Shown: piece after piece, positions 6,343 to 63,535 of the stretch
Numbering within the stretch: position 1 is the stretch's first letter
Layout of the letters: every line of letters starts with the position of its first letter
Assembly (NCBI GenBank): GCA_963971225.1
Contig: OZ020269.1
Coordinates: 95,855,540 to 95,919,539 of the forward strand
From: Melieria omissa
Taxonomy: Eukaryota; Arthropoda; Insecta; Diptera; Ulidiidae
Direction of reading: 5' to 3'
DNA: 64,000 nt
Program-made: the position numbers and the translations under genes
Notes under the pieces: model-generated
The model's input: the letters and a program-made list of their open reading frames with translations, nothing else
The model's database searches: none
What the model was told of the DNA's origin: nothing

Positions 6343-7040
6343 ATGGGGAAGCTAGCTACCATATTCCAGGCTGAAATCCATGCCATTGAGGCATGCGCCA
6401 GAGAATGCCTACGCAGGAAAGCATCTGGTGCACAAGGACATATATTATCCGACAGTCAAGCGGCCCTAAAGGCTCTAGAAGCCTATGCGGCCTCCTCAAG
6501 ACTCGTCAAGGATTGCCGTGCTCTCCTAAATGAACTGGGAGGTCGTAACTCAATAGAGCTACACTGGATCCCAGGACACGAGGGTCACGAAGGCAACGAA
6601 AAAGACGATCGCCTTGCCAAAAGAGGCAACTTTGCCGAACAATGGACCATCAGCACGGGAAAACGCCAGGCAAAGCGGTTTATAACACCAGACAGAGGAG
6701 TATATAGAAAACTCCTCATGTTAAAAAAGGTGGACCTCCGCATCCTCACTGGATACCTAACTGGACATTGTTTATTAAGGTATCATCTCAGTAAAATGGG
6801 AATTTCCTCTTCGGATGTCTGCAATGCAATCAAGAAACAGAAACCTCCATGCACGTTCTCTGTGATTGACCTGCACTCAGTAGAAAAAGATTTCCCCAGC
6901 TAGGGGCTATCACCATAGCCTCGGAAACGATCTGGAATCTACAACCCCAAAGAGTGCGTAAACTAATAAAAAGCCTCAACTTAGAGGGTTAAACCAGGCT
7001 TGCACAAAAAATCTACACTGGTCGCAGTGCCCAATAGCCT
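6343..7040 (+). mobile_element. LINE RNase H domain and C-terminus, I/Jockey-like, decayed
   Basis: A 186-codon open frame starts inside an RNase H domain. It shows the second acidic residue in FQAEIHAIEA, the third in HILSDSQAALKAL, the conserved WIPGHEGHEGNE, and the last Asp region in KDDRLAKRG. The first catalytic Asp (the T-D-G-S type motif) is missing, so the 5' part has been lost. After the domain comes ILTGYLTGHCLLRYHL with the expected Cys-rich knuckle garbled. The tail after a stop at 6901-6903 still reads as LINE C-terminus (WNLQPQRVRKLIKSLNLEG, near 6930-6990). It is on the same strand as the pgant exons but is not part of that gene. Confidence 0.8.
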
Positions 7041-23188: not shown

Positions 23189-23469
23189 TTAGTTCGTCAG
23201 GCGATATTTAATGGCACGCAAAATCGGATACTTGTCGCCCGTGCACGAGCCACGGAAATCATCAAAGGACAAATCGAATAGCGCCACGCCGCCCAAATGG
23301 AGCTGTTGCACATAGCCCGCCTTCTCGGCAGCGGTGTCCGGATCCTCGTACGCCACCCAGATGCCGTTGTCGCCGTTCTTGTCCGCAGCGCGATAGGCGT
23401 AAATGCCAAAACGCCTAGTCGGATCAATGACCTTTTTGAGCGGCGAATTGGCACCCTTGGCATGGGCGT
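23189..23469 (-). CDS. Idgf6: Idgf6-like exon 3, 3' part (beyond the transposon)
   Basis: Minus-strand frame from the 8-bp target copy to the stop TAA at 23191-23189. It encodes NAHAKGANSPLKKVIDPTRR, FGIYAYRAADKNGDNGIWVA, YEDPDTAAEKAGYVQQLHLG, then GVALFDLSFDDFRGSCTGDK and YPILRAIKYRLTN. This is the C-terminal end of the GH18-like barrel: the G-V-A-L-F-D-L-S-x-D-D strand and the final Cys are family landmarks. There is no splice acceptor at the 23469/23470 edge; the exon simply meets the transposon end. In the assembled state this segment is separated from its start codon by 1,990 bp with stops, so it would be expressed only from alleles lacking the insertion. Confidence 0.9.
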
Positions 23470-25459
23470 TAGGGTGGAGTGAAAAACTCGATTTTAAAAT
23501 TTTTAGAAGCTAGTATTTTGGAAATGTGCCAAATGTCCATAGTACCAATCCTGCAAAATTGTATTAGTTTCTAACATCTCCTTGATCGCCCATCACCTAA
23601 TTGAAATAATTGTTTTTCATCAAAAGAAGTGAAAGCCGTATTTTCAACTCAGTTAAGGATTCAAAATAAATCTCAGTAACCTTTGCTTTAGGTTTGCGGT
23701 TTTTAAGTTATTTATTGTAGCAGTCCCGATTGAGCGAACAAAAACTTAGATCGGACTCGTCTGACAATGCTACTGTCGATGAGTACATTCCAGATAGAGA
23801 ATCAGTCAAAAGTAAGCCAAATCAGGATCGCCAATGTCAAAAAATGGCTTTCTCTCTGCCTTCCCCCACTATAGCTTGTGATCGGACCAGAGTTTCGGAC
23901 AGATCGGCTGCTGTATTAGCAACATCAGTTCTGCATGATCTTGGTCTCGAATCACCCAACGACCGATCCAAAGTAATTGACCGAAGCATAATCTGTCGAG
24001 AACGCAGTAAACTTCGAAAGGAACTGAGGCAGAACGAAGACGACCAGTTTGACCACACTCACAAGGGCATAGATGGACTATTCTTCGATCGCCGCAAGAA
24101 TAAAACTTTGACACAAGTTCTCAACGTCGACAACAAGTACCACAGAAAAACCATATCGGAAGAACACATAACCATCAACGCACAGCCGGGTTCTTCGTAC
24201 TTCAGTCATACGTCTCCGTCATCAGGCTGCAGCAAAGTCAGCCAGTCGCTAGTCATGAGTCATTAGTCGCTAATTTCAAAGAGTGAAATGCGAAGACAGA
24301 AAATATTAAAGTTGTCGGGTGTGACGGCACAAAAGTAAACGGCATATCAGTGGCTGATATGTCTACTCCATGCCAATGAGCTGCCCTTGCGCAATCTCTT
24401 CCAGTCACTTGATGGCGGGACTACAGGCCCTCATGGATTCTCTGGATCTATCGGAAAGCGGCTAATGACATATAGCGAACAGCCTGTCTCCTCATATCAA
24501 CCAGTTAAACTGACCGAGCAACTCTCCAATGTGAACCCAAATGAGTTGAGCACAAATAAGCGGTATCTACTGGAAATGTGCAATAGCATCAGCAAAGGTG
24601 AATGTAGCGTCGATCTGGCAGTGGGAACCCTGGGTGCCTGAATCATTCACGATGGTTAACGACGCGTCGGCCAATCAAATCCTCCAATTGTATGTCAGCG
24701 ACAAGAAACCGTCCAAGAATCTAACAACGATGGTCACGTTTATCATTCGCGTATATGCTCGGATGTGGTTTGGCACAAAACCCCAGCCATCATGCAAAGA
24801 GGGAGATAGGCACATTCACCAGATGCTCGTCAAGTCACGTTACCTCAGCCGTAAACTCAAGGGAATCGTTGACCCCGTTATTCACCGTAACGCGAACTTT
24901 GCTCAACCAGAAAATCTGCTCCTGGCCATGATGACGCAACATCGAGCACATATACGTGAGTTGGGCTTACGACGAGCGATGAAGGCCAGAGCTACCGCAG
25001 TCCCCAGTGAATAAATACGAAGGTTCAAGGTTCCCGCAAAACTTAACTTCGACGCCGTGGAATACTTCGACATGATTGACTGGGCAGTCTGCCCTATTTC
25101 GGAACCTCCCGTCATTAAAGCCATGACAGACGCTGAGCTCACGGATCTCATCACGACAGAGGTGACTCCAAATTTCATCTTTCCAAAGTTCCTAAGCAGT
25201 TTATACCATGTGTTTATAACTTTGGCATCATTAAATACTGTAATTATAAGGGTATTTGATTATTAACTAAATTTTAAGATGACTACCTTTAATGTCGCGT
25301 AATACTGTGAAATTAAAAGCCGCGATGGGAGATCAAAAAATTGTTTAATTTATTTCTAATTTTTACACAGCTTTCTATTGATGTATTGGCACATTTTGAG
25401 ATATCTAGCGAATTGATATTCCAAAAAAATTTTTTTTTGGCCATTTTCACTCCAGCCTA
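23470..25459. mobile_element. hAT-like DNA transposon inserted in Idgf6 coding exon
   Basis: The left end reads TAGGGTGGAGTGAAAA (23470-23485). The right end, reverse complemented, reads TAGGCTGGAGTGAAAA, a 15 of 16 match. The flanks are an exact 8-bp duplication, ATGGGCGT, at 23462-23469 and 25460-25467. An 8-bp duplication with a YAGGG-type tip fits the hAT superfamily; P and some other superfamilies also make 8-bp duplications, so the class is inferred. Both sides of the insertion are one continuous Idgf6 exon, and removing the element plus one target copy restores the frame. The interior holds a decayed protein-coding region of an unnamed family (separate entry). Confidence 0.88.
23721..25240 (+). 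pseudogene. Decayed transposon ORF, uncharacterised arthropod protein family
   Basis: The frame begins after an acceptor-like TTTATTGTAG, with no ATG. It reads through basic, Asp-rich sequence (LATSVLHDLGLESPNDRSKV, then LRKELRQNEDDQFD). It then gives QWLICLLHANELPLRNLFQS and DGGTTGPHGFSGSIGKRL near 24340-24480, and LSTNKRYLLEMCNSISKGEC near 24540-24600. A frameshift near 24600-24650 leads to LQLYVSDKKPSKNLTTMVTF, IIRVYARMWFGTKPQPSC, PVIHRNANFAQPENLLLAMM and HIRELGLRRAMKARA. In-frame stops fall at about 24264, 24339 and 25012; after the last, IRRFKVPAKLNFDAVEYFDM and IDWAVCPISEPPV continue. I recall these blocks from unnamed proteins in aphids and other arthropods but know no assigned function. 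The D...C-x-L-H order loosely recalls RNase H-fold transposases; this is inference only. Confidence 0.65.
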
Positions 25460-25839
25460 ATGGGCGTTGTTTGCGTTGGGTAGCAGCGCACAAACTTCGG
25501 GCCAGCTGTAGATGCCCTGCACGCCTGTGTTGGGACCGGCTGGCGCCTCGTTTTCCACCTTCGACACTGGCGGCGAGCCCGTCTCACCCGAGTCGTCGGT
25601 CATTTTCCAGACACGACCATAGGCCGGCACGCCCACATTGATTTTCGAGGCGGGGCAATTGTTGCGCAGCCAATACTGCACCTGGTAGTTGACATTGAAG
25701 CGGGGATCGCGATCGGCCATCTCGTAGAGCGGTGCCGGCAAGTCGGCCAGCTCGGGATTGCGTTCCGGTGTGTAGAAATCGAAAAGGCCCAAATTGACAA
25801 AGTCCAGATAGTTGATAATGGCCGGCACATCATAGAACA
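25460..25839 (-). CDS. Idgf6: Idgf6-like exon 3, 5' part (before the transposon)
   Basis: The acceptor on the minus strand is ATATTTTTAG; the C left over from exon 2 plus TG gives Leu. It encodes FYDVPAIINYLDFVNLGLFD, then FYTPERNPELADLPAPLYEM, FNVNYQVQYWLRNNCPASKI, NVGVPAYGRVWKMTDDSGET, and GVQGIYSWPEVCALLPNANN. The Y-W-x-x-x-x-x-P-x-x-K-I-x-V-G-V-P-x-Y-G-R block is the conserved GH18 barrel strand, and the insertion G-E-T-G is typical of IDGFs. In the assembled sequence the frame reaches TAG three bases into the transposon, right after ALLPNANNAH, so the protein encoded here would be truncated. Confidence 0.93.
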
Positions 25840-25912: not shown

Positions 25913-26488
25913 GGGATGAATTCACGTTGGGCAGCACCGACGCTGACAACAACAAATTGTCTGGTCTGAATTCGTTCTTGAGGTCACGCAGCAAAGCCGT
26001 AAATTGTTCCTTGTGCGCTTCGGAATTCTCATCGATAATGAAATCCCCGGTGAAGGCCTTCTTGAAGCCCTTCCACAGGCTGCCGAAACCGCTGTGCACC
26101 TTCTTCGGTTTGTTCTTGGGGAATTGCCATGCCACATCCATACCATCGAAGCCATAAGTCTTCACAAGAGCGTAAGCAGTGTTGATGAAGCGTGCACGGC
26201 CTGCTGGATTCTCCAACAATTCCAGATACTTGTTGGGCAAATCTTTGGCATCTTCGCCAGTTTCAATATCCTTATCGCCGCCAAGACTAAGCAGCACCTT
26301 AAGTTGGGGATACTTGCGCTTGACACGGGTGACAACGCGGTAGAGTCCTTTGCCCAGATCCAAATCAAGATTTTGATTCAAGCTAACTGCTTTGTAGGAA
26401 TCACGCTCAATGCCCGCATAACCATAGACCAGATAGTCGCAAAATTGCAGAGCCGGTTCCAAGTCGTCGATAATCAATTTGCCGAGAC
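25913..26488 (-). CDS. Idgf6: Idgf6-like exon 2 (chitinase-like barrel, inactive catalytic site)
   Basis: The acceptor is CTTCTCAG and the donor is CATCCC|GTAAGT on the minus strand. It encodes LGKLIIDDLEPALQFCDYLV, YGYAGIERDSYKAVSLNQNL, LKVLLSLGGDKDIETGEDAK, and FDGMDVAWQFPKNKPKKVHS, then the IDGF-specific region FGSLWKGFKKAFTGDFIIDE. In active GH18 chitinases the D-x-x-D-x-D-x-E motif ends in the catalytic Glu. Here the same position in DGMDVAWQ is Gln, which is the known reason IDGFs lack hydrolase activity. The extra S-G-F-G-S-L-W-K-G loop is an IDGF trait. The adjoining intron toward exon 3 is 73 bp. Confidence 0.95.
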
Positions 26489-26606
26489 CTGAGAAGAGTG
26501 AAGAAATGTGACGTAAAAATTAAAAATAAATTAGATTGAACTTATGTCGTAGGTAGGCAGATAGGTGGATGGTTAGGTTGGTGTTTAATGAAAGATTTAA
26601 AGGTAG

Positions 26607-26918
26607 CCGTAGCTCAGCTGGCTAGTGCGTTGGGCCGCGAGTCAAGACTCCGCGAGTTCAATACTCCGTTGCGTTAACAGCGAAAAAAAGGAAAACAACA
26701 ATTTTTCTTTCGACGGTTGTCCTCTCAGCAGGAAATGGCAAACCTCTGAGAGTAAAATTGCCTATGAAAAATCTCCCAACTCGCCGTTCGGAATCGGCAT
26801 AAAACTGTAAGTCCCTTCCAACCTTGTAAAAAACATTCACACGCCCAACACGGTTGGTTGCGGGTAGGTAGGCCTTAGTCTCGTAATCGGGCTGTCGTGC
26901 CAGTCAAGAAGAAGAAGA
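26607..26918 (+). mobile_element. tRNA-derived SINE, family A, copy 1, with 14-bp target duplication
   Basis: The head is CCGTAGCTCAGCTGGCTAGT (A box) with CGCGAGTTCAATACTCC (degenerate B box). The body contains CTGTCC-type CCTCTCAGCAGGAAATGGC, AAACCTCTGAGAGTAAAATTG, then GGAATCGGCATAAAACTGTA, and ends GTCAAGAAGAAGAAGA. The repeat AGATTTAAAGGTAG at 26593-26606 and 26919-26932 flanks it exactly. It lies in the first intron of the Idgf6-like gene, on the opposite strand. Confidence 0.88.
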
Positions 26919-26962
26919 AGATTTAAAGGTAGGTAAGTAGGTAGAGTAAGTAGGTAGGTAGG

Positions 26963-27298
26963 CAGCCGCCGTGGCTCAGTTGGTTAGTGCGCGGTCCAAC
27001 GAGTCGCATGCAGAGCGACGCAAGATCGAATACTGCATGTAGTAACACCTAAAAAAAATAACGGGAAACTCGTTTTCTCTTTCGGTGGCTGTCCTCTCAG
27101 CTGGAAATGGCAAACCTCTGAGAGTAAAAATTGCCTATGAAAAAAGCTCCCAACCTGCCGTTCGGAACCGGCATAAAACTGTAGGTCCCTTCCACCCGCG
27201 TACAAAATTCACACGCACAACACGGGTGGTTGCGGGAAGCTTGGCCTTAGTCTCGCGTAAGCGGGCTGTCGTGCCAATCAATTAATTCAATTAATTAA
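26963..27298 (+). mobile_element. tRNA-derived SINE, family A, copy 2 (variant)
   Basis: The head is GCCGCCGTGGCTCAGTTGGT, then TAGTGCGCGGTCCAACGAGT and AAGATCGAATACTGC. The body matches copy 1 (CTGTCCTCTCAGCTGGAAAT, GGCAAACCTCTGAGAGTAAA, CATAAAACTGTAGGTCCCTT). Its tail is AATTAATTCAATTAATTAA instead of GAA repeats, and the head differs enough to suggest a subfamily. Target duplication is unclear because both flanks are GTAG-rich. Confidence 0.82.
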
Positions 27299-28055: not shown

Positions 28056-28330
28056 ACTAGTTGGAGCTTCCAGTTAAGTTGACTCTGAATGTTGACTCTG
28101 GATTGTTGCAAAAGAAGTTTCAATGTGAATCTCCCTTCTTCTAGAACAAGTGAAGGATCAAATAATTGGTTTTTTTTTCTGTCCATGCGACTCGCACAGA
28201 AACCTTTCGAAAACAGTCACAACGTCTTGGCGTGGGTATCTATCGACATTGATCCGTCAGAACCGACCCGTCAGGGTTCTTACGTGGTAAATTTTAGTCA
28301 TACCTAACGGGAAATTTACAGAAAAATACC

Positions 28331-28742
28331 AAAAACATATTTTGAACCAGCAATTTTTCTGTTTGGGGGCGTTTGAACCCCCAAAAACATATTTTGAACC
28401 AGCAATTTTTCTGTTTGGGGGCGTTTGAACCCCCAAAAACATATTTTGAACCAGCAATTGTTCTGTTTGGGGGCGTTTGAACCCCCAAAAACATATTTTG
28501 AACCAGCAATTTTTCTGTTTGGGGGCGTTGAACCCACAAAAACATATTTTGAACCAGCAATTTTTCATTTGGGGGCGTTTGAACCCCCAAAAACCTATTT
28601 TGAATCAGTAATTTTTCTATTTTGGGGCGTTTTAACCCCCAAAAACATATTTTGAACCAGCAATTTTTCTGTTTTGGGGCGTTTGAACCCCAAAAACATA
28701 TTTTGAACCAGCAAATGTTTCTATTTTGGGGCGTTTGAACCC
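28331..28742. repeat. 52-bp tandem repeat, eight copies, each with a G5/C5 hairpin
   Basis: The unit is AAAAACATATTTTGAACCAG, then CAATTTTTCTGTTTGG, then GGGCGTTTGAACCCCC. Unit starts at 28331, 28383, 28435, 28487, 28538, 28589, 28641 and 28692 give periods of 51-52 bp. The GGGGGCGTTTGAACCCCC segment is an inverted repeat in nearly every copy. The block lies in the first Idgf6 intron. It translates to repetitive frames on both strands that are not genes. Confidence 0.95.
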
Positions 28743-29482: not shown

Positions 29483-29612
29483 CTTCCTTGATGAAGCTGC
29501 TCGAGTCATAGTAGCAAACCATATGTTTCTGCGGTCCGGTGGGCTGCTGATTGCCCACTTTGACGGCCAGGGCGGCCGCAATGAAAAGTGAAAACACAAT
29601 AAATTCTTTCAT
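29483..29612 (-). CDS. Idgf6: Idgf6-like exon 1 (start codon and signal peptide)
   Basis: The first ATG is at 29612-29610 on the minus strand, preceded by GTGAAA. It encodes MKEFIVFSLFIAAALAVKVG, then NQQPTGPQKHMVCYYDSSSF and IKE. Residues 1-16 are a clear signal peptide (hydrophobic IVFSLFIAAALA), fitting a secreted protein. H-M-V-C-Y-Y-D-S-S-S-F is the first barrel strand of GH18-like proteins, with the first conserved Cys. The donor is GGAAG|GTGAGT, and G plus GT of exon 2 rebuilds Gly. Intron 1 is 2,994 bp and carries two SINEs and the 52-bp satellite. No other Met lies upstream in frame close by. Confidence 0.95.
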
Positions 29613-38738: not shown

Positions 38739-39896
38739 TAGGCATCGCAATCCCGGGATCCCGGGATCCCGGGATCCCGGACATTTTCCAGTCCCGAAAA
38801 TCCCGGGATTCAAATCCTTTAATCCCGGGATTTTCGGGATTGCAAAAGATGCTTCAAAGTTCAAATGAAATAAATTTAAAAACACAAAAACCCAATTGCT
38901 TTTCTTAGGGAGGTGGGAGGGGATAGAGGGCGTCTTTTGGAAAAGGCTTATAATTATTTACTATGCATTCAACCAACAAGTGTTGAATCTTAAAGATGTT
39001 TCTCTTCAGCAGGGTTTATTTGCAATAAATTTCGCACTAGATTAGAGGACAAAACACTTAATGCCTTAGTATTTTTAAGATCTCAGTTTTTAGTTAATCA
39101 AAACGCTTAACTTTTTTATCGAAATAATCGAAGTAAAACTAAAAGCACAAACAAATTAACTATTTTATTTTTTTTATCAAATATGCATATACATATATGC
39201 ACTTTATGATACATCGGTTGCAAAATAATAAGTTATGTTTAAGTGTCATTTTTGGATAAAACAAAATGCTATGAAACTGAAGTTAAATGACAAATGAAAA
39301 ACTTTTAAGTTAACTCTTCAATTCCCAGTGTCACCTGCAGGTGACAGATGCTTAATATTGGTTTTCCTACCACATAGGTTTTTATTTTTAAATTCGAACA
39401 CTTGTATAGAAAAGTCAATTAGTAGTACTTGTTTATTTAATTTTCCTAGCAACACTAGCGATACGTCATTTGTAAAATTTATTCATTTGCTTCACGCGTA
39501 ATTAAAGCAGTGCGAGTTTGTGTGGTTTCTTTCAATATAAAAATGAGGGTAGTGTAAACATTTTTTATGTATTTTTTTGTCTTATTCAAACGTATCTAAG
39601 CTATTTTATTTAAAAAGAAAATTTTCTTTTTCACTATTTTGGACATGGGAATTGAAGGGTTAAACAAAATGTGCTTAAATTCAAGATAAAAAATCTTGAA
39701 ACTACCCAAATGTGATTAAAATGTGTCCATTTTTATGATAAATATATTATAAACAAGTATTTATGCAATTCGGGAAAATTGTTTTATTAAAAAATTTGTT
39801 ATATGAATCCCGGGATTAAATCCCGGGATCCCAGGATTTGATTTTTCAATCCCGAAAATCCCGGGATCGCAAAATGGCAAAAAATTGCGATCCCTA
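38739..39896. mobile_element. Non-autonomous hAT-like element with CCCGGGAT subterminal repeats
   Basis: The left end is TAGGCATCGCAAT and the reverse complement of the right is TAGGGATCGCAAT, a 12 of 13 match. The flanks are GTATGTAT at 38731-38738 and 39897-39904, an 8-bp duplication, although the surrounding GTAT simple sequence weakens that evidence. Both ends carry several CCCGGGAT / ATCCCGGG words (38751-38830 and 39808-39870), as expected of subterminal transposase-binding repeats. There is no coding capacity. Another element (39314-39659) is nested inside it. Confidence 0.75.
39314..39659. mobile_element. piggyBac-like miniature element, 346 bp, nested in the hAT-like element
   Basis: TTAA at 39310-39313, then CTCTTCAATTCCCA. 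The right end TGGGAATTGAAGGG is followed by TTAA at 39660-39663. The inverted repeat matches at 13 of 14 positions. The palindrome GTGTCACCTGCAGGTGACA lies just inside the left end. Confidence 0.7.
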
Positions 39897-62300: not shown

Positions 62301-63360
62301 TTGGTTTAAGTGGCGATGTTACATCCAACATGAAAATCCAATTAGCACGTTAGCGCCGTTTCGTTACCACTATTCCTGGTAGGTACTTTACGGTATACTG
62401 ATGTTTTGTCTTCCGGACCCTTTACAGTGTATATCCTATATCCAATCTGTGAGGTTGATGAAAGAGAGTAGCGAGTGTATGGTGCACTTCGCTATCTCTT
62501 CGAGACTCTGGAACGTTGGTTTTCCCATCATTTTCCATCTCCTTCTTGCCAAGGCCGGACAGGCGCAGAGATAATGATGGAAGGTTTCCTTCTCGTTAGG
62601 GTTTTCACAGCTATGACAGCTGGTATTGAAGGGAATCCCCATTTTAGCCGCGTGCTCTCCAATGGGCCAATGACCTGTGATGACTGCCGTTAGTCTCGCT
62701 ACGTCCCGGCGGCCCTTGTTTAAGAGCTCCAGGATTCCAGGAGCTTACAGGATTCCATCCCCTGCCATCTAGTGTTAGCTTTGGCGAAGAAGTCCTTGGA
62801 GACCTCGCTCTTGATAGAGTCAAATGGGGCGAGAACCGTCAGCGCCTCACTCTCATCAAGAGCGGAGCCTCTTCGAGCCAGTTCATCGACTCGTTCGTTC
62901 CCGTCAATGTTATTGTGCCCCGGCACCCAAATCAGGGTAACTTTGAACCGATGAGCTAGCTCTTTGAGGATCTTCCTGCATTCCCGCACTAGTTTTGACG
63001 ATAAGATCGACGAGTCCAGTGCCTCAATCGTGGATAGGCTGTCGAAAAGTACAGTGATGTGGCTTTTGTAGGATGTATCAGCCAGTGCCATCCTGCATGC
63101 TTCCGTAATAGCAAGCACTTCCGCCTGGAAAACGCTTGCTATGTTTGGGAGCCGGAAAGACACACTTAGCTTTAGATGTTCGGAGAAGACTCCGCATTCC
63201 ATCTTGGAGCCGTCAGTGTAGATTGTGCTCCATTTGGTCTTAGAGAGGAAATTTTGTAGATCGGTAATCTGTGCATCAGCTATCAGGTTGTCTGAAGAAT
63301 TTTTTACAGTAAAGCGTATAATTTTTAGTTTAGTTCTGCTCAGTGGTGGACATTGCTTTT
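62297..63360 (-). mobile_element. I/Jockey-type LINE, RNase H to 3' end, minus strand
   Basis: A 229-codon minus frame carries a complete-looking RNase H domain: first Asp in IYTDGSKM (near 63213), Glu in FQAEVLAITEA, Asp in VLFDSLSTIEAL, VIWV-type LIWVPGHNNIDGNERVDELA with the last Asp. After a frame break, 62642-62436 gives SCHSCENPNEKETFHHYLCA, CPALARRRWKMM and the end LLSFINLTDWI, with the C-x-x-C...H...C knuckle. The 3' UTR runs to the GGTTGGTTGGTTGGT (ACCA) tail at 62293-62307. The domain is intact in sequence but the reverse transcriptase is missing. The upstream edge lies about 30 bp from the next pgant exon. Confidence 0.85.
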
Positions 63361-63392
63361 CTGATATAGTTTTCCTTTTTTTTATTTTACAG

Positions 63393-63535
63393 TGGCGCAG
63401 CGGAGTCAACGTGCTGAAGAAGAACTCTGTGCGTCTGGCCGAAGTCTGGCTGGACGAGTTCGCGCAATATTACTACCAACGTATCGGCAATGATACGGGC
63501 GATTTTGGTGATGTGTCCTCACGAAAGGCAATAAG
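63393..63535 (+). CDS. pgant9-like: pgant visible exon 6 (end of catalytic domain)
   Basis: The acceptor is TCCTTTTTTTTATTTTACAG. The exon begins between codons with WRSGVNVLKKNSVRLAEVWL, DEFAQYYYQRIGNDTGDFGD, then VSSRKAI and AG of an Arg codon, before the donor GTATAG. The N-x-x-R-x-A-E-V-W-x-D-E block is the family's last strongly conserved catalytic-domain segment. The donor G-TATAG is weaker than the consensus. The remaining catalytic tail, the linker and the ricin B-type lectin domain must lie beyond the window's right edge. Confidence 0.94.

Follow-up and report, generated by a model that had tools for sequence, protein, structure and literature searches.

Inverted ends that start with C/TA-G are typical of hAT transposons, and in the Ac/Ds system intact copies are told apart from internally deleted ones. 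For the Ac family of this superfamily (hobo, Hermes, Ac/Ds) the consulted part of one report gives the target pattern nTnnnnAn (PMC8961557). Idgf6 (imaginal disc growth factor 6) is a cuticle-protein gene whose product belongs to the non-catalytic GH18 proteins. The portions consulted of the reports on its knockdown by RNA interference (RNAi) describe the strongest larval lethality, together with Cht2, among the Drosophila family-18 genes studied (PMC4738247), tracheal defects (PMC7414880), larval death with wing malformation in Bactrocera correcta (PMC7218075) and misshapen wings in Zeugodacus cucurbitae (PMC8287652). Here we describe a hAT-like transposon that sits in the last coding exon of Idgf6 in a stretch of 64,000 nucleotides of Melieria omissa DNA (GCA_963971225.1, OZ020269.1, 95,855,540-95,919,539, forward strand), called the window below. 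Disruption of a gene by a transposon is a well-known type of mutation, and this case is unusually clean. Taken as a whole, the data make it probable that a recent insertion, mobilised in trans, has given rise to a very probably null and most likely segregating Idgf6 allele.

The gene and the element are made up of the following features, the exons of the gene being bounded by GT/AG sites:
29483..29612, minus strand: Idgf6 coding exon 1, with the ATG at 29612, encoding a hydrophobic start and ...CYYDSSSFIKEG
25913..26488, minus strand: Idgf6 coding exon 2
25460..25839, minus strand: Idgf6 coding exon 3, portion upstream of the insertion; the exon begins at 25839
25460..25467, no strand: right copy of the target-site duplication ATGGGCGT, a direct repeat
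23470..25459, plus strand: non-autonomous hAT-like transposon of 1,990 bp, oriented by its transposase remnant on the plus strand
25444..25459, minus strand: right terminal inverted repeat TAGGCTGGAGTGAAAA, whose first three bases are the premature TAG (25459-25457) of Idgf6
23757..25191, plus strand: degenerate transposase remnant, matched in tblastn by residues 216-699 of the 754-residue protein P0002
23470..23485, plus strand: left terminal inverted repeat TAGGGTGGAGTGAAAA, matching the right end at 15 of 16 positions; the intact elements L048 and L049 have the same ends
23462..23469, no strand: left copy of the target-site duplication ATGGGCGT, a direct repeat
23189..23469, minus strand: Idgf6 coding exon 3, severed portion, 90 codons and the native stop, including the second copy of the target duplication

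An earlier note, made from the letters of this DNA, had proposed 16-bp inverted ends (15 of 16 matching) with an exact 8-bp duplication, and both were found with exact boundaries, the element at 23470-25459 lying between 23462-23469 and 25460-25467. A scan of the window for 8-bp repeats with ends matching at 14 of 16 positions or better, 0.5 to 4 kb apart, returned the pair in Idgf6 and one other at 38823-39866, and the same scan of 20 mononucleotide shuffles of the window gave no pair. As the note had also said, the edges of the element are not GT-AG; they read TA...TA, and an ordinary intron was rejected on this ground. The transposon does interrupt an exon, and the Idgf6 frame resumes on the far side of it. 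As assembled, the frame has 362 codons and ends at the TAG at 25459-25457; without the element and one copy of ATGGGCGT it has 452 codons, the length that the note had rebuilt, so that 90 residues are lost, as had been estimated. The note placed the stop three bases into the element, which has to be corrected, since TAG is the first codon of the element on the gene strand. Among the lost residues is GGVALFDLSFDDF; in the solved relative 9g3q it is matched by a conserved portion of the C-terminus, and by the general build of GH18 barrels it is the last barrel strand.

Judged by its sequence, the interrupted gene is Idgf6, with a full-length GH18-like frame that resembles Idgf6 more than the other Idgfs, in agreement with the first assignment. 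Both pieces tested match the GH18 family PF00704, and residues 30-450 of the joined frame find a match in the solved Idgf2 structure 1jnd. Among named proteins, IDGF6 of the gall fly Eurosta solidaginis comes closest: identity is 82% from end to end and, once the flanks are joined, both are 452 residues long, whereas the best proteins named Idgf4 reach 67% identity. In contrast to the gene of Eurosta, the coding frame of the last exon is broken in the Melieria omissa assembly.

Intron 1 of the gene carries two tRNA-like repeats that look by eye like short interspersed elements (26600-26900 and 26960-27290) and a minisatellite of eight 52-bp units (28329-28742). Rfam gave no match at the gathering score for these repeats or anywhere else in the window.

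The insertion is recent. An old break would be expected to let the 90 codons downstream of it decay; they hold no stop, and they keep all 30 tail residues that are invariant in 14 Idgf6-like proteins (the first 17 matches without P0113, P0116 and P0120), while the core keeps 136 of 138. Tail differences relative to core differences give ratios of 0.93-1.56, compared with a mean of 1.25 and a range of 0.66-1.79 over the 91 pairs among the 14 proteins. The second line of evidence comes from the copies of the element in the assembly of the window (490 Mb, 164 contigs), where 47 matches correspond to at least 40 loci, the window copy included. When the window copy is aligned pairwise to 32 others (L029, L042, L043 and the nested copies L043-L047 set apart), L010 equals it over all 1,990 bp, L009, L011 and L012 each depart from it at a single site, and no change is private to the window copy. 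At a fly mutation rate of 2.8x10^-9, the absence of private changes over the 1,990 bp places the insertion at less than about 5x10^5 generations, by hand arithmetic. L009 (G000:C2:106774451-106776455), which differs by one base from the copy in the window, has another GH18-like match some 2.8 kb away at C2:106769448-106771618, which is probably a coincidence.

The other 39 copies were fetched with their flanks, and 38 of them are flanked by perfect 8-bp duplications where the ends are expected; the sole exception, L043, has lost its left end. L025 and L026 are one insertion that was duplicated afterwards, with the duplication and the flanks common to both, and L029 and L042 have identical flanks and a shortened right part. 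Over 36 insertions (the window and 35 others, leaving aside the L029/L042 site and L043) the duplicated site has the consensus nTGYRCAn, with T at position 2 in 33, G at position 3 in 31, C at position 6 in 28 and A at position 7 in 34. A further site outside this count, ATGATGAT, fits the pattern; the Idgf6 site deviates from the consensus by a G at position 7. Four copies (L044, L045, L046 and L047) carry a nested 606-bp element, bounded by the ends CAGTGTTG...CAACACTG and by an 8-bp duplication of its own (GTCATTAG), which spread together with them, and a gap of the same size and place in L043 is probably the same insertion.

The target sites of 37 insertions, the Idgf6 one included, were joined as empty sites (L029, L042 and L043 left aside), and the 14 longest frames spanning a junction were viewed. 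Idgf6 is the only recognisable host gene among them by eye; of the remaining 13, inspected by eye with no database search, eight resemble reverse transcriptase, endonuclease, RNase H or mariner and five were not recognised. Random windows gave 164 codons at the 95th percentile and 210 at the 99th, and flanks of 440 bp miss short exons.

The window element is non-autonomous: it has no working transposase, and intact relatives with the same ends exist in the genome (ends checked on two of 21). Its transposase remnant has in-frame stops and frame changes and lacks the N-terminal cysteine motif and the glutamate of the last helix. The match is likewise broken by stops or frame changes in all 40 copies, L021 reaching residue 728 through two stops. 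Counts of transposase matches in the genome are lower bounds, since 59 of 1,021 candidates were scored. At least 22 near-full-length matches are 82-83% identical to P0002; 21 are free of stops, two of these spanning residues 1-730 only. We fetched two of the 21 together with one of the seven matches of a second lineage. The first two (L048 and L049) are elements of 3,052 and 3,056 bp with perfect duplications and the same 16-bp ends as the window element, which, relative to the first of them, is missing two blocks (about 870 and 165 bp) and is 88-93% identical to it in the aligned blocks. The second intact lineage (L050, G000:C1:98239000-98243100) is a 3,118-bp element with at least seven genomic matches, a 741-residue frame 46% identical to P0002, the ends TAGGGTGGAGCGAAAA and the duplication ATGCCTGT. 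Family-invariant residues are kept at 77 of 77 positions in the two 754-residue frames and in the 741-residue one. A second dead family is represented by at least 25 matches to residues 1-412 of P0002, at 79% identity. Three intact full-length transposase copies at G000:C4:43154298, 43161705 and 43169112 are spaced by exactly 7,407 bp, like a tandem array. In viral contigs, scanned for relatives of the transposase family, 16 pattern matches turned up, but tblastn confirmed none of them.

The shared 16-bp ends make mobilisation in trans plausible, and as the simplest account the intact 754-residue transposase most likely mobilises the dead copies. The following course of events is the most likely. 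A transposase-defective hAT-like element, most likely mobilised by the intact enzyme encoded in many genomic copies, entered the last coding exon of Idgf6 and duplicated ATGGGCGT. Because the right end of the insert begins with TAG in the Idgf6 frame, a protein of 362 residues at most is made, lacking the last barrel strand and the C-terminus. Such a truncated allele is very probably null, and it is most likely segregating and was kept by chance in the primary assembly.

The element is hAT-like, tied to the superfamily by fold, target pattern and intact relatives. The hAT-like identity put forward in the earlier note stands; the note lacked the status of the element as dead, multicopy and recently amplified, and its intact relatives in the same genome. 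The transposase of a relative has an RNase H-like catalytic domain with a large helical insertion, in a Hermes-like fold. The consensus of the 36 target sites fits nTnnnnAn (T at 2, A at 7), and the short inverted ends begin with C/TA-G (TAGGGTGGAGTGAAAA, 15 of 16). A candidate acidic triad and C-x-x-H motif of P0002 (D321, D396, C425, H428 and E707) are invariant in 45 of 45 relatives and kept in all three intact genomic copies. The likeness to the Ac family lies in the 8-bp duplication with T at position 2 and A at position 7, the short inverted ends and the fold, and intact and internally deleted copies stand side by side as in Ac/Ds. What sets the element apart from this family are paired N-terminal cysteines, invariant in the 45 relatives (126, 128, 135 and 137 of P0002), and the lack of a BED finger among the matches listed and of a sequence-profile link to Hermes. 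In a Pfam scan of the 45 relatives the best E-value for any family was 0.0028; the best hAT-type hits were one to PF14372 (0.072) and one to PF14291 (0.097), and neither PF05699 nor a BED finger was among the matches listed (25 of 40 families). A sequence profile of the relatives did not find Hermes among solved structures and gave two hits, with E-values of 1.4 and 1.7, neither of them a transposase. A missing profile match does not exclude a divergent hAT member. The P element of Drosophila likewise has a catalytic fold of the RNase H type that holds a helical insertion, and its duplication is also 8 bp long; identity with it was rejected because of a weaker fold match.

It could be that these transposases form a large, sequence-divergent branch of the hAT fold that escapes the profile library used; the branch would be found across arthropods and further animals and be active at present in Melieria omissa, where one or more intact lineages would drive several dead families, with one dead copy having just knocked out a developmentally important gene. 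We hold this broader view only tentatively, as rather doubtful. P0103 alone among 104 relatives has a precomputed Pfam label (PF27073.1), while our own Pfam scan gave it no family; a newer Pfam model may thus already cover part of the transposase family, which lowers the odds of a divergent branch.

Among the three alternatives of the earlier note, we favour the segregating allele and the haplotype choice in the assembly, which are two views of one situation. A segregating allele is favoured because knockdown of Idgf6 is harmful in other flies. In 34 matches on the 164 contigs only one Idgf6 locus was found, with neither a second copy nor an intact allele, and a second copy or haplotig was set aside for this reason. 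The remaining alternative, an insertion that has gone to fixation or that the sequenced strain carries in homozygous form, with paralogous Idgf genes covering for Idgf6, draws support from this lack of an intact Idgf6 in 490 Mb and from five other Idgf-like loci at 49-66% identity (one on C2, three on C1 and one on C3). However, the severed codons show no decay, and in the consulted portions of the reports RNAi knockdown of Idgf6 by itself does harm in Drosophila and tephritids in spite of the paralogues. A fixed loss would be surprising, and we regard it as unlikely. Far less probable is that cryptic splicing removes the element from the mRNA and leaves an Idgf6 product of near-normal or reduced length. 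Such splicing can occur with maize Ds elements, and a search pairing upstream donors with acceptors from 60 bases inside the far edge of the element to the native stop found 103 in-frame pairs, of which donor 25495 with acceptor 23509, inside the element, would yield a product of 456 residues. Yet on one rough matrix the best in-frame pair scores -1.0, compared with 15.3 for intron 1 and 4.8 for intron 2 of Idgf6. Moreover, the TAG comes before any donor in the end of the element, and poly(A)-like hexamers occur in the element on the gene strand at offsets 105, 110, 166 and 1743. Splice rescue was set aside on account of the weak sites.

The least credible explanation is a repeat copy falsely joined into the exon. 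Near-identical multicopy repeats are the usual setting of false joins, but an exact 8-bp duplication at precise inverted ends would not arise from one, and the Idgf6 exon runs on in frame beyond the element. The chimeric join was set aside since 38 of 39 other copies share the same anatomy. We return to the recent, trans-mobilised and probably segregating insertion, on which several points weigh unfavourably. The tail test is blunt: six of the 14 proteins, each left out in turn, likewise show no tail change, and the limit of about 5x10^5 generations is a loose bound. The dead copies, being about 88-93% like the intact ones in the aligned blocks, are not fresh deletions of them. The lack of an intact Idgf6 allele would be explained by a primary-only assembly, but it fits a homozygous or fixed insertion as well. 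The harm from Idgf6 loss is known from RNAi data. Finally, a Drosophila study reportedly deleted each Idgf gene and saw viability and fertility lowered when all six were lost; if so, loss of Idgf6 alone is survivable, and this lowers the odds of our reading slightly and lends support to the fixed-loss alternative.

The locus offers a clean, datable exon insertion with likely mobilising relatives in the same genome, and the natural loss of a gene that RNAi marks as important becomes directly testable at this site. Gene catalogues built from single-haplotype assemblies can take a segregating null for the gene of the species. The transposase family, common in arthropod data and with nearly no Pfam labels, merits a profile of its own. 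A literature search, narrow in collection and wording, found no paper linking Idgf6 with a transposon insertion, and another on alleles caused by hAT elements in exons yielded nothing of use.

Elsewhere in the window, the pair at 38823-39866 has inverted ends starting TCCCGGGATTTTCGGGATTG (24 of 25 matching), about 1 kb apart, with further CCCGGGAT repeats around it and no flanking duplication. RNase H pieces (PF00075) occur at 6343-6900 on the plus strand and at 62723-63409 on the minus strand, probably of retrotransposon origin.
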